DNA of 64,000 nucleotides from assembly GCF_005166025.1 (NCBI RefSeq), contig NZ_CP028923.1, positions 4,280,001-4,344,000 on the forward strand, in the 5' to 3' direction. The DNA is from Mangrovivirga cuniculi. Lineage in GTDB: Bacteria > Bacteroidota > Bacteroidia > Cytophagales > Cyclobacteriaceae. Made by a program: the position numbers and the translations under genes. Position 1 is the first letter of the stretch. Each line of letters opens with the position of its first letter. This document shows positions 52,894 to 64,000 of the stretch, one piece after another. Below the pieces are notes generated by a model. That model saw only the letters and a list, made by a program, of their open reading frames with translations. It was not told where the DNA came from and searched no databases.

Positions 52894-53115
52894 TAATGCG
52901 AAAATATATACTCATATTTCAAAACCTTAAAAGTTGATTTTTTTTACAATATGTTACGTGCTAATTATCACATTAAAAAATATTTATTTGACTTTATTAA
53001 ATCGAGATAATAAATTCAGACACTTATTTTTAATTGGAGTCCAGTAACCAATACAAACGGGGCGTCACCGAAAAGCCATATGAGTAGGATGTATTTTTTA
53101 ATAATTTTTTTAAGT

Positions 53116-58998: not shown

Positions 58999-59706
58999 AT
59001 GTTTGAAGAGTGGACTGATTTTTTAGCTATTAGTGGGCTGGTTTTTCTTGGAATTGCCTTAATTATTTTTGGTTACCACCTCATAAAGGTGAATTTTTTT
59101 CTATCACCAAAACAAGCATACGAATATATCAGCAAAAATGAAGTTCGAACTTTACAATATGGACTATATTCTGTCATCATATCACTTGCTTTTTTTGTAA
59201 ATACTTTTTTTGAAGGAGCAGACCTGTTGTGGTGGCTTGTAAGAATTTTCCTCACTGTAATGACCGGGCTTATACTGAGCGTAGTCATTAAATCATATCT
59301 TAAATATTACTATCCGTTTCATCTTGAAAAACGATTAAAAAGATTGAGATATAAACCAAGAGTTTCTCCAAAAACCGGTCGGATGATGAAATTACTTGAT
59401 GAGGATGAAGAGGACGTCTACCTTGATGAAGGTATGCAGACCGAAGAAAATGTTTATTCTGTTGATTACGATGTCTGGATCGATGAAGAAACGGGATATA
59501 CAATGATAGAAAAATACCAGGGCCATCTTATTGCTTCAAGATGCCCGGAATGCAATTACAATACATTTAAAGTAGAAGAAGAAGATCTTGTCGTCCCTCC
59601 CAGCCTTTCCTCTGAAGGGAAACTAATCAAATCTTTTAGATGCAAATACTGTGGCCACACGGAAAAGAAATCCTTTCAGGTAGCTAAACTTTCAGAAAAT
59701 CAGTAA
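58999..59706 (+). CDS. Membrane protein with C-terminal zinc ribbon, function unknown
   Basis: The 235-residue protein has three membrane segments (about 9-28, 52-70, 75-95), a basic linker, and a cytoplasmic end with CPECNYNTF and CKYCGHTEKK, which make a four-cysteine zinc ribbon. I do not recognise a family name. It lies between the S9 peptidase gene and the ilv leader. Confidence 0.75.
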   Translation: MFEEWTDFLAISGLVFLGIALIIFGYHLIKVNFFLSPKQAYEYISKNEVRTLQYGLYSVIISLAFFVNTFFEGADLLWWLVRIFLTVMTGLILSVVIKSYLKYYYPFHLEKRLKRLRYKPRVSPKTGRMMKLLDEDEEDVYLDEGMQTEENVYSVDYDVWIDEETGYTMIEKYQGHLIASRCPECNYNTFKVEEEDLVVPPSLSSEGKLIKSFRCKYCGHTEKKSFQVAKLSENQ

Positions 59707-59985
59707 AAATCATGTGATTAAACATTCGTTAGGCATATAATTCCTAATACGATTACGTTTGCGATGTTTTTTTACAAAGTTTTCATTTCTGCCAATCACA
59801 CCACGACTTTAATTAACACATATTCAATATTGAGTCTTATTTTTAATAATTTAAAATTATATTCTTCACTAACAACCGTTAGTAAATTAATATTCTGCAT
59901 TTATTTAAAATAAAAAACTAATATTTTGCTTGTTAGAGTAAACGCCAACACTTAATATTGTATTAAGCATAAAGGTTAAATTGAA

Positions 59986-60051
59986 ATGATGAAAGCAAAT
60001 AACATCCTGATTATCCTGATAAACATTGTGATCATTGTCGGAGGACATTGA
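59986..60051 (+). CDS. ilv operon leader peptide
   Basis: ATG-ATG at 59986 opens a 21-residue frame ending TGA at 60049-60051. Residues 7-18 are ILIILINIVIIV, so 11 of the 21 residues are Ile, Leu or Val, the products of the operon downstream. The peptide ends GGH over the bases GGAGGACAT that take part in the antiterminator. Such a run is not expected by chance and is how leader peptides of ilv operons look in enteric bacteria. Confidence 0.88.
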   Translation: MMKANNILIILINIVIIVGGH

Positions 60052-60089
60052 CCAGGGGGATGTTATTGCAGTATCAAAAGCCGTTCTCC
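60040..60089 (+). promoter_or_regulatory. Antiterminator pairing of the ilv attenuator
   Basis: GGAGGAC (60040-60046, the last sense codons of the leader) can pair with GTTCTCC (60083-60089, the left arm of the terminator), 7 bp with one G-U. A ribosome stalled at the Ile/Val codons would leave GGAGGAC free, blocking the terminator; a ribosome at the stop codon 60049-60051 would cover it. A further 10-bp pairing, AATAACATCC (59998-60007) with GGATGTTATT (60058-60067), encloses the leader. Pairings are seen; the mechanism is inferred. Confidence 0.7.
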
Positions 60090-60111
60090 CAACAGAGACG
60101 GCTTTTTATTT
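60076..60111 (+). terminator. ilv attenuator terminator
   Basis: AAAAGCCGT-TCTC (60076-60088) pairs with GAGACGGCTTTT (60095-60106), one T bulged, followed by T-rich TATTTT. It lies between the leader peptide and ilvE, so it must be suppressed for the operon to be expressed. Confidence 0.88.
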
Positions 60112-60147
60112 TAAGAAGATTGTTTCCATAATAAACGTGAAGGATAT

Positions 60148-61038
60148 ATGTATTTCTCTAAAAAAAGCATCGTATTATTTGACGGCGAGTGGCGAAAAGC
60201 AGAAGATGCCGAAGTAAGTCTATACAATCAGACCATGCATTACGGTCTGGGGGTATTTGAGGGGATGAGGGCCTACAAAACTGACGAAGGTGCAAAAATT
60301 TTCAAACCGAACAGGCATTTTGACAGACTTATTAATTCTGCAAAAAAGCACCATTTAAATTTCCCCTTTACTTCTTTAGAACTAACAGAACTAGCCTACG
60401 AACTGCTAAAAAAGAACAAGCTAAAAAATGCATATATCAGGCCATTGATCTACGCTGGCCCTTATATGGGTTTGAGAACAGCGCCTGCGGCTCATTTTTT
60501 GATGGCAGCATGGGAATGGAATAATTACCTGGGAGAAGAACCGCTAAATGTTAACATCAGTAAGTACGAAAAATTAAATCCTGCAGGTGCTCATATTGAG
60601 TCGAAGGTAGTAGGGAATTATGTTAATTCCATACTTGCATCAAACGACGCTAGAGACAAAGGCTATGATGAAGCATTGATGCTCGATATGAATGGATATA
60701 TCGCCCAGGGTCCAGCTGCAAATTTCTTCTACGAGAAGGATGAAGTGTTATACACTCCGAAAAAAGGATATATAATGCCGGGAATTACCAGGCAAACGAT
60801 AATAGACCTCGCGAATGAAACCGGATTTAAGATTGTAGAGAAAGATATCAGGCCGGAAGAAATTCTCGATGCTGACAGTGCATTTTTTACAGGCACAGCA
60901 ATAGAGGTAACTGGAATTAAATCCATTGAAGGCAGGAAAATGCGAATTCCATGGAAGGAAAGCATTGGGTACAGTCTGTTTTTAATGTACCGCAGAAAAG
61001 TTACCAAAGATCATCTAACGGCATTTAACCTGGTTTAA
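60148..61038 (+). CDS. ilvE: Branched-chain amino acid aminotransferase
   Basis: The 296-residue fold-type IV aminotransferase has [32 protein letters not shown], the PLP-lysine region [14 protein letters not shown] (Lys153), and GIITRQ-type text [18 protein letters not shown]. It makes Ile, Leu and Val from their keto acids. The leader and attenuator precede it and ilvD follows after 8 bases. Confidence 0.94.
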
Positions 61039-61046
61039 CAAACACA

Positions 61047-62720
61047 ATGACATTAAACAAATACAGTAAAGCGGTTACGCAGGATCCTACGCAACCGGCA
61101 GCTCAGGCTATGCTTCATGCGATTGGGTTGACGAAGGAAGATCTGGGAAAACCACAGGTTGGAATAGTCAGCACAGGTTATGAGGGAAACCCTTGTAACA
61201 TGCATCTAAACGATCTTGCGGCCGAAGTAAAAAAAGGCACTTTAGAAAAAGATCTTATTGGTCTTATTTTTAATACCATAGGTGTTTCCGATGGAATTTC
61301 CATGGGAACGGATGGTATGAGATACTCCCTTCCAAGTAGAGATATCATTGCTGACAGCATTGAAACCGTGGTATCCGGAATGAATTATGATGGATTTGCT
61401 GCTGTAGTCGGATGTGATAAAAATATGCCTGGTGCAATGATTGCCGCAGGTAGACTTAATCGTCCGGCAGTACTGGTTTATGGCGGAACTATTAAACCAG
61501 GATGTTATAAAAGTAAAAAGCTGGACGTTGTTTCTGCTTTTGAAGCCTTAGGGCAAAAATTTGCCGGTAAAATAGACGAAAAAGAATTTGAGGGTGTGGT
61601 AATGAATGCTTGTCCGGGCCCGGGTGCTTGTGGCGGAATGTACACTGCAAATACCATGGCTTCTGCAATGGAGGCAATGGGCTTGACCCTACCATATTCA
61701 TCATCAAATCCTGCAGAAGGAACCGAAAAAACTGATGAGTGCCTGAATTCCGGAAGAGCATTAAAATTACTTCTTGAAAAGGACTTGAAACCAAGGGATA
61801 TTGTTTCAAGAGAGTCCTTTGAAAATGCTTTTAGATTGATCATCGCTCTTGGAGGATCAACCAATGCGGTATTGCACATGATTGCTGTTGCAAAAGCTTT
61901 TGAAATTCCTTTTACCCTCAATGATATAAAAGAAATAAGTAGTAAAACTCCATTTCTAGCCGACCTTAAACCAAGTGGAAAATATGTAATGGAAGATCTT
62001 CATAAGGTAGGCGGAACCCCCGCAGTGATGAAAATGCTTCTTTCTGAAGGATTGCTTACCGGTGATTGCCTGACTGTAACCGGTAAAACATTAGCTGAAA
62101 ACCTCAGCGAAGTAGCTCCTCTTAAAGAAGGTCAGGAAATAATACATTCTGTAAATAATCCGGTAAAAAAGGAAGGCCACCTTGCTATTCTTCATGGCAA
62201 TCTGGCTGAAAATGGTGCAGTTGCTAAAATAACTGGAAAAGAAGGTGAGCAATTTACAGGTACTGCGAGAGTATTCAACAGTGAATATGAAGCAAATGAT
62301 GGGATCAGAGAAGGAAAAGTAAAAGCTGGAGATGTGGTGGTGATCAGGTATGAAGGCCCTAAAGGTGGCCCGGGAATGCCTGAAATGTTAAAACCAACTT
62401 CAGCTATTATGGGTGCAGGGCTCGGAAAAGAAGTTGCCCTAATTACTGATGGCCGCTTCTCGGGAGGAACTCATGGTTTTGTAGTGGGACATATCACACC
62501 TGAAGCTCAGGAGGGCGGATTGATCGCTTTATTAAAGGATGGGGATAAAATTACAATTGATGGTATTGGTAAAACTATTTCTGCCGATCTCACCAAAGAA
62601 GAAATTAAACAGAGAAGGAAAGAATGGACAGCACCTCCTCTTAAGAAAAAATCAGGAATATTATACAAATACGCAAAAAGTGTAGCACCGGCTGATCAAG
62701 GCTGCGTAACCGATAGTTAA
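61047..62720 (+). CDS. ilvD: Dihydroxy-acid dehydratase
   Basis: The 557-residue protein has [40 protein letters not shown] (iron-sulfur cluster cysteines), [17 protein letters not shown] and [16 protein letters not shown]. It makes 2-keto acids in Ile and Val synthesis. It lies between ilvE (8 bases) and ilvB (2 bases). Confidence 0.97.
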
Positions 62721-62722
62721 TT

Positions 62723-64000
62723 ATGGAAACAGCAACGGAAATAAGCAAACCTGAAAAAATAAATCAGTTCGAAGGCACGGAAATATCCGGTGCCCAGGCC
62801 ATTACTTTATCTTTGATAAATGAAGGGATTGATACCGTTTTTGGTTATCCCGGTGGGGCAATTATGCCGGTCTACGATGCTCTTTATGATTTTCAGGATA
62901 CATTTAAGCATTACCTGGTAAGGCACGAACAGGGAGCTGTACATGCAGCCCAGGGATTTGCGCGTGTTTCGGGTAAACCAGGTGTATGCCTTGCTACTTC
63001 AGGTCCCGGTGCAACTAATCTGATTACTGGTATAGCTGATGCACAGATCGACTCTACCCCTATCGTATGTATAACAGGGCAGGTGTTTGCTCCACTACTT
63101 GGAACTGATGCATTTCAGGAAACTGATGTGGTTGGTATATCTATGCCTGTAACTAAATGGAATTACCAGGTTACTGATGCTTCAGAGATCCCTGAAGTTA
63201 TTGCAAAAGCATTTTACATAGCTAAAAGCGGGCGTCCCGGACCGGTTTTAATTGACATCACAAAGGATGCTCAGGTTAGTAAATTTATTTACGAATACAA
63301 AAAATGCATCAATATCAGAAGTTATCAGCCTAAGCCGGTTATCAAGCCTAAGGAAGTTCTGGCAGCTGCCAGTCTGATAAATGAAGCAAAGAAACCATAT
63401 ATTGTATTCGGTCAAGGCGTTATTTTATCTGATGCCCAGAAAGAGCTTTTAAGTTTTGCCGAAAAGGCACAGATACCCGCAGCCAGCACATTGCTTGGAT
63501 TATCTGCATTTCCACCCGATCATCCATTGTACGTAGGGTATCTGGGGATGCACGGAAACTACGGTCCTAATATTAAAACAAATGAATGTGATGTATTAAT
63601 AGCCGTTGGTATGCGATTCGATGACCGTGTAACCGGTGATCTTACCAGGTATGCAAAACAAGCTAAAGTAATCCATATTGAGATCGACGAAGCTGAAATA
63701 GATAAGAATGTTAAAACGGATGTATCAATCCATGCAGATGCTAAAGATGCACTACAAGCGCTGACTGAGCATGTAAAATCAAATACTCATTCCGAATGGC
63801 TACAGGAATTCCGGGAATGTGAAGAGATAGAATATGAAAAAATAGCAAAGAAAGAAAAGTTCCCCGAAAGTGGTCAGATCAAAATGGCTGAGGTGGTAGA
63901 GCAACTTTCAAATATAACTGAAGGTAATGCGGTAGTAGTGACAGACGTTGGCCAGCACCAAATGGTAACTTCAAGGTATTATAAGTTTAAAAGTCGTAGA
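62723..64000 (+). CDS. ilvB: Acetolactate synthase large subunit (partial, runs off the right edge)
   Basis: ATG 62723 opens a frame that runs 426 codons to the edge. It shows TVFGYPGGAIMPVYDALYD, HEQGAVHAAQGFARVSG and GVCLATSGPGATNLITGIAD (thiamine-diphosphate and FAD enzyme of the IlvB type), RPGPVLIDITKDAQ and MRFDDRVTGDL. It makes acetolactate/acetohydroxybutyrate, the first common step. The C-terminal thiamine-binding domain is outside the window. ilvN and ilvC are expected next but are not seen. Confidence 0.96.
   Translation, partial: METATEISKPEKINQFEGTEISGAQAITLSLINEGIDTVFGYPGGAIMPVYDALYDFQDTFKHYLVRHEQGAVHAAQGFARVSGKPGVCLATSGPGATNLITGIADAQIDSTPIVCITGQVFAPLLGTDAFQETDVVGISMPVTKWNYQVTDASEIPEVIAKAFYIAKSGRPGPVLIDITKDAQVSKFIYEYKKCINIRSYQPKPVIKPKEVLAAASLINEAKKPYIVFGQGVILSDAQKELLSFAEKAQIPAASTLLGLSAFPPDHPLYVGYLGMHGNYGPNIKTNECDVLIAVGMRFDDRVTGDLTRYAKQAKVIHIEIDEAEIDKNVKTDVSIHADAKDALQALTEHVKSNTHSEWLQEFRECEEIEYEKIAKKEKFPESGQIKMAEVVEQLSNITEGNAVVVTDVGQHQMVTSRYYKFKSRR

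Follow-up and report, generated by a model that had tools for sequence, protein, structure and literature searches.

A putative ribosome-mediated transcription attenuator upstream of ilvE in Mangrovivirga cuniculi and its recurrence in Bacteroidota

Main finding

The ilv operon of Mangrovivirga cuniculi is very probably governed by a ribosome-mediated transcription attenuator that would couple its expression to the supply of charged isoleucine (and leucine and valine) tRNA. The proposed element lies in a 64,000-nucleotide stretch (the window) of a genome assembled as one contig of 4.66 Mb, and its parts are listed in Table 1. The overall reading, that of a classic ilv attenuator with alternative 1:2, 2:3 and 3:4 pairings, is well supported by two sister species, by wider relatives, by controls and by a folding model of the nascent RNA. 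We infer sufficiently close coupling of transcription and translation, efficient termination and a dominant role of isoleucine in the sensing.

In the proposed cycle, a ribosome begins translating the 21-codon peptide as RNA polymerase transcribes the leader. With charged tRNAs available, the ribosome would reach the stop codon (60049-60051) and cover GGGGGA, leaving the terminator left arm free, so that the hairpin at 60076-60106 could form and transcription would end before ilvE. With charged tRNAs scarce, it would stall at an Ile, Leu or Val codon among codons 7-18, segment 2 would be left to pair with 60085-60090 and so disrupt the terminator, and the ilv genes would be transcribed. Without translation, segment 1 would hold segment 2 (60058-60067) and the terminator would form.

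Table 1. Positions of the leader elements and ilv genes in the window
Feature	Position	Strand	Sequence and remarks
Leader peptide ORF	59986-60051	+	MMKANNILIILINIVIIVGGH, then stop; 21 codons and TGA; 7 Ile, 2 Leu and 2 Val codons
Segment 1	59998-60007	+	AATAACATCC; begins at leader codon 5; partner 60058-60067
Antiterminator arm of the original prediction	60040-60046	+	GGAGGAC; partner GTTCTCC (60083-60089), one G-U; unsupported as main pairing
Segment 2	60055-60067	+	GGGGGATGTTATT; GGGGGA (60055-60060) partners segment 3; GGATGTTATT (60058-60067) partners segment 1
Segment 3	60076-60090	+	Terminator left arm and loop start; TCTCCC (60085-60090) is the proposed antiterminator partner
Segment 4	60095-60106	+	Right arm of the intrinsic terminator, into the T tract; 36/36 cells paired with the left arm in three species
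ilvE	60148-61038	+	ORF; branched-chain aminotransferase, first structural gene; relatives 98 and 92% identical
ilvD	61047-62720	+	ORF; second gene
ilvB	62723-64000	+	ORF; truncated by the window end

Leader, stems and operon

The original prediction of a 21-codon, Ile/Leu/Val-rich leader holds: these residues account for 11 of the 20 codons after the start, the enrichment in end-product codons that is expected of attenuator leaders. Isoleucine, leucine and valine together make up 23% of the residues in the window's proteins; under a binomial model, a ten-residue stretch contains nine or more of them with a probability of 1.6e-5. Among the window's ATG ORFs of 8-45 codons, both strands counted, 9/841 have at least eight in ten, so the leader by itself is unusual, not unique. 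What stands out is its combination with a terminator.

That terminator, claimed earlier and recovered here, has the form AAAAGCCG-T-TCTC / GAGACGGCTTTT, a hairpin of −14.3 kcal/mol followed by a T-rich tail between the leader and ilvE; the order of the elements is likewise as first described. The 10-bp pairing that had been said to enclose the leader fared less well. The complement exists (AATAACATCC with GGATGTTATT), but the stem does not begin until codon 5 of the leader and therefore fails to enclose all of it. The antiterminator arm of segment 2 overlaps the partner region of this 1:2 stem. In the window, the 1:2 energy is reached by 1/100 shuffles, and the 2:3 energy is no better than in shuffles (57/100 as good, and 37 and 22/100 in the two sister species).

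The first three genes of the operon are presumably ilvE, ilvD and ilvB, names taken from the original prediction, family knowledge and the encoded sequences. The genes ilvN, ilvC and ilvA appear to follow 3' of ilvB, beyond the window. The ilvC reading frame (L150:2551-3614; G000:C1, about 4345050-4346113, outside the window) is apparently split by a frame break, which may be a sequencing error or a real lesion; in both sister species ilvC reads through as far as their loci reach. Elsewhere in the window, at 53029-53094, a DUF805 RNA motif (RF03081, 72.5 bits) is the sole Rfam match at the gathering score.

Predicted switching of the nascent RNA

Switching was modelled by folding the nascent RNA with a ribosome that hides everything up to 12 bases past the first base of the A-site codon. 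RNA 5' of the ribosome front is treated as unavailable, a simplification that places 1:2 pairing behind a late-stalled ribosome outside the model. The readout is the probability that TCTCCC, in the left arm, is paired upstream. In silico, an antiterminator mutually exclusive with the terminator is exposed by stalling and covered at the stop codon: the left arm of the window is held at P=0.94 with the ribosome stalled at Ile, Leu or Val, at 0.03 with the ribosome at the stop and at 0.18 in untranslated RNA. Both contrasts together are matched by 0/200 shuffles of the leader-to-terminator stretch, and singly by 1 and 0. The two sister species behave alike, with 0.98 stalled, 0.01 at the stop and 0.38 untranslated in Mangrovivirga halotolerans (L032), and 0.98, 0.02 and 0.37 in Marinigracilibium pacificum (L033), each again with both contrasts in 0/200 shuffles. 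Footprints of +12 to +18 leave the values nearly unchanged; at +9, the stop values rise to 0.35 (window), 0.22 (L032) and 0.19 (L033).

The individual helices follow the same course. With the RNA ending at 60094, untranslated RNA forms 1:2 at P 0.99 and no 2:3. For a ribosome at codons 3-20, 2:3 lies at P 0.78-0.89, dropping to 0.50 when that codon is the Val codon at 60028; for a ribosome at codon 21 or the stop it is at most 0.01. An RNA ending at 60098 resembles this, and at 60090 2:3 reaches only about 0.4. Folding at full equilibrium up to the terminator end was tried and set aside as uninformative: wherever the ribosome is placed, the terminator prevails (P=1.00). The switch would therefore need kinetic, co-transcriptional folding, as switching in known attenuators is kinetic.

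Which pairing serves as the antiterminator differs from what was first proposed. The main antiterminator is likely GGGGGA, just 3' of the leader stop, with TCTCCC; all 18/18 cells are paired across the three species, with one A-U/G-U difference (GGGRGA). The 7-bp pairing of the original prediction, GGAGGAC with GTTCTCC, is present in the sequence and was rejected as the main pairing, its place being taken by the conserved one. It is paired in 18/21 cells, with 7/7 pairs in the window and M. halotolerans and 4/7 in Marinigracilibium, where 3/7 pairs are lost. In the fold model it competes at a single stall codon, the Val codon at 60028 (P 0.71, 0.39 and 0.37 with 3' ends at 60090, 60094 and 60098), and has P of at most 0.06 at other ribosome positions.

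Conservation in the closest relatives

The nearest named relatives found are M. halotolerans (98% identity in ilvE) and M. pacificum (92%), and the segment alignment of the three species is gapless. The leader frame is kept in both, and its changes are silent, exchanges among Ile, Leu and Val, Asn to Ser, or Gly to Ile. In the 1:2 stem 28/30 cells are paired; the innermost pair is lost in two species, and a single A-U has become G-U. Leader, 1:2, 2:3 and 3:4 are all kept in 3/3 species. Since none of the pairs in these helices is changed on both sides, the three species show compatibility, not covariation. In the alignment of ilvE 5' regions, a check that the original prediction had proposed, leader and stems are kept in the sister species; compensatory changes are absent among the three closest species and mixed in a set of seven Fulvivirga-type members described below.

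This conservation weighs against the idea that the hairpin terminates transcripts arriving from upstream, or is a site of processing, while the ilv genes are controlled by a DNA-binding protein at a promoter. A neighbouring upstream gene on the same strand does end at 59706, as such an arrangement would have it, but a conserved leader ORF lies between that gene and the terminator, and conservation extends to segment 2, the complement of the left arm. As a replacement for attenuation this explanation is very improbable; promoter control could operate in addition to it.

Recurrence upstream of ilvE across Bacteroidota

Regions upstream of ilvE were sampled from relatives, the family, the phylum and named contigs. 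At the cut-off used, an ilvE match was found in 61/148 genomes of one relatives/family sample and in 17/198 of the phylum sample; the survey covers these, and the genomes lacking a match at that cut-off (87/148 and 181/198) fall outside it. A unit was defined as an ATG leader of 8-45 codons, with at least six Ile, Leu or Val in ten residues, that lies no more than 90 bases from a hairpin resembling a terminator. Among 133 regions assembled, 128 were scanned, two being too short (L034, L046) and three duplicates (L063, L076, L114); duplicates are defined by identical last 150 bases only, and the loci are not phylogenetically independent. The survey leaves out rows L023-L031, which match ilvE weakly, as well as L086 (26% identity) and L087 (32%). 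L003 and L004 stand in for L032 and L033 in the survey, and L120 and L121 for L131 and L132.

A leader with a terminator is present in 108/128 unique ilvE upstream regions and lacking in 20/128; in the phylum sample, 15/17 places carry the unit. The controls give 6/640 for dinucleotide shuffles of the same regions and 12/128 for reverse complements, and because the latter rate is not nil, individual calls may in a minority of cases be false positives. Two units look weak (L010, L138). Among genes with at least 100 bases free upstream, in the window and 56 named-contig loci, the unit stands before 39/43 ilvE genes vs 0/95 others. The original prediction had hinted that such an element would be unexpected in a member of Bacteroidota, which is too strong in view of this frequency and of the attenuation inferred in Flavobacterium psychrophilum (PMC9723704). 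Five Flavobacterium loci (L045, L047, L049, L055, L056) have no above-threshold leader ORF before ilvE, and perhaps represent a lineage that lost the attenuator.

Pairing was analysed in 124 units, to which L064 contributes two with one leader. The stop-codon region pairs with the terminator left arm at a median of −15.6 vs −7.8 kcal/mol in shuffles (p<=0.05 in 92/124 units), and the 1:2 pairing beats shuffles at p<=0.05 in 37/124. The stalled value exceeds the stop value by at least 0.3 in 112/124 units (4 when shuffled), whereas it exceeds the untranslated value by that amount in 18/124 (2 when shuffled). The switch at the stop codon is thus general in the set and the 1:2 protector is not. 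A strictly defined three-state pattern is seen in 7/124 units. The window itself, by the survey's broader measure, scores 0.22 untranslated, 0.66 stalled and 0.07 at the stop.

Covariation was examined in a hand-picked alignment of seven Fulvivirga-type members, an eighth (L040) being omitted because the aligner misregistered it. For 1:2 and 2:3 together, 87.8% of cells are paired (shuffles 81.8; 0/500), the covariation score is 0.248 vs 0.139 in shuffles (0/500), and 7 cells are changed on both sides (shuffles 2.7; 1/500). Two of the five measures are like shuffles, namely pairs changed on both sides (3 vs 2.2; 186/500) and further pair types (6 vs 7.0; 457/500). Segment 1 reads AATATCA, AGTATCA or AGCATCA and its partners TGATATT, TGATACT or TGATGCT, differing by member. 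All 77/77 cells of the terminator stay paired in this set, and one of its pairs is changed on both sides.

Two leader–terminator units stand in tandem before ilvE at 15/128 loci, L064 excluded (L006, L016, L018, L041, L042, L089, L100, L107, L110, L119, L133, L134, L135, L146 and L147); the window has one unit only. Several of these loci share a genus, so the independent cases are fewer than 15. In silico, both units have a stalled-minus-stop difference of at least 0.3 at 14/15 loci, the exception being L016.

Other leaders and RNA elements of the genome

Two further amino-acid genes of the same genome have upstream ORFs of matching composition. A short, His-rich ORF ending CAHVHHHIHHSS precedes hisG (L151:1307-1384) and is a probable His leader; the only hairpin that the upstream scan yielded (−9.6 kcal/mol) overlaps the final codons of this leader, and no terminator was recognised 3' of the leader. 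A trpE-like gene (L157; G000:C1, upstream of 3452613, minus strand) has the Trp/Tyr-rich leader MMKINIHNAWYWWYIDR and a strong terminator (−16.0 kcal/mol), with no Rfam match at the locus, Bacteroid-trp RNA (RF01692) included. A similar fold test gives about 0.51 at the Trp codons and 0.25 at the stop, which is no clean ribosome switch. Because no His terminator was recognised and the trp switch is unclean, these leaders back attenuation mainly by composition. Upstream of leuA and the aspartate kinases (L152, L154, L155), inspection by eye recognised no attenuator. A SAM riboswitch is found at L153:3936-4037, minus strand, along with an aspartate-kinase-containing frame of 1001 codons.

The survey and these leaders also bear on whether the ORF before ilvE encodes a small hydrophobic membrane peptide that is itself functional, such as one resembling a type I toxin, with the hairpin merely as its terminator. 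Small hydrophobic toxins of similar appearance are known, and a hydrophobic 21-mer that starts MMK and is followed by a terminator resembles them. Such a peptide would hardly account for units that stand before ilvE in 108/128 regions and before 0/95 other genes, for a switch that is matched by 0/200 shuffles, or for trpE and hisG leaders in the same genome that match their own amino acids. Whole leaders contain 2.5% F, 3.1% A and 1.8% M vs 46% I/L/V, the last figure being inflated since leaders were selected for these residues. A toxin-like role is accordingly given very little credence, and ribosome-mediated attenuation is preferred. The weakest alternative, a tRNA- or metabolite-binding leader (T-box or riboswitch) governing the terminator, is suggested by the presence of an intrinsic terminator within an amino-acid operon leader and is barely credible, given that the covariance models of Rfam release 15, T-box included, produced no match in this segment at the gathering score, nor at E<=5 in 59700-60200, and that the layout is accounted for by a conserved leader ORF containing regulatory codons.

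Relation to known systems and implications

The closest parallel is the enterobacterial ilvGMEDA attenuator (ilvL), which has the same Ile/Leu/Val-rich leader, alternative 1:2, 2:3 and 3:4 pairings and intrinsic terminator before an ilv operon. The Mangrovivirga locus differs from it in gene order, ilvE-D-B and then apparently N-C-A, and has no Rfam family match. Within the phylum, Vitreschak and co-workers reportedly predicted attenuators of amino-acid operons in some Bacteroidetes/Chlorobi in 2004.

In F. psychrophilum, strong indications of leader-peptide attenuation upstream of amino-acid operons have been described, with structured 5' elements at pheA and hisG that have no Rfam hits; the species belongs to the same phylum, and ilv is absent from the main text of that paper, the supplements of which may list it (PMC9723704). 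In Bacteroides thetaiotaomicron, short ORFs in long 5' UTRs are said to resemble attenuator leaders (PMC7366714). Taken with the 2004 predictions, these reports mean that the mechanism is already known and that the phylum is reported to use leader-peptide attenuation. Bacteroid-trp RNA (RF01692), listed as a Bacteroidetes cis-regulatory RNA candidate named after trp (PMC2864571), has a covariance model that matches neither the window nor the trpE locus. Among the matches listed in the attenuation and leader-peptide literature, a body of text that excludes supplements and most subscription papers, no description of an ilv attenuator in Bacteroidota was recognised.

Among the papers found on tandem attenuators with leader peptides, none concerns amino-acid operons by its title. 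The tandem attenuators of Salmonella mgtCBR, with two short ORFs and stem-loops per leader, are comparable to the tandem units of some relatives; that operon encodes MgtC and an Mg2+ transporter, not amino-acid biosynthesis, and the unit in the window is single (PMC3641672).

The present analysis adds a well-supported attenuator type without an Rfam match at the locus, and corrects the likely antiterminator pairing. More tentatively, and at slightly less than an even chance, attenuation might be the standard control of ilv in Bacteroidota and have acquired features peculiar to the phylum. The antiterminator arm would sit at the leader's stop codon; a functional 1:2 protector would often be missing, which would allow readthrough when the leader is untranslated; and certain lineages would multiply the response with tandem units. 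The tandem versions of relatives offer a natural test of how serial attenuators shape a response.

Bacteroidota ribosomes start largely without Shine-Dalgarno pairing. If phylum-specific attenuation is indeed the standard ilv control, it would imply close transcription–translation coupling in Bacteroidota, and from the recurrence of the unit in the members surveyed one would expect RNA polymerase and the leading ribosome to keep little distance between them there.
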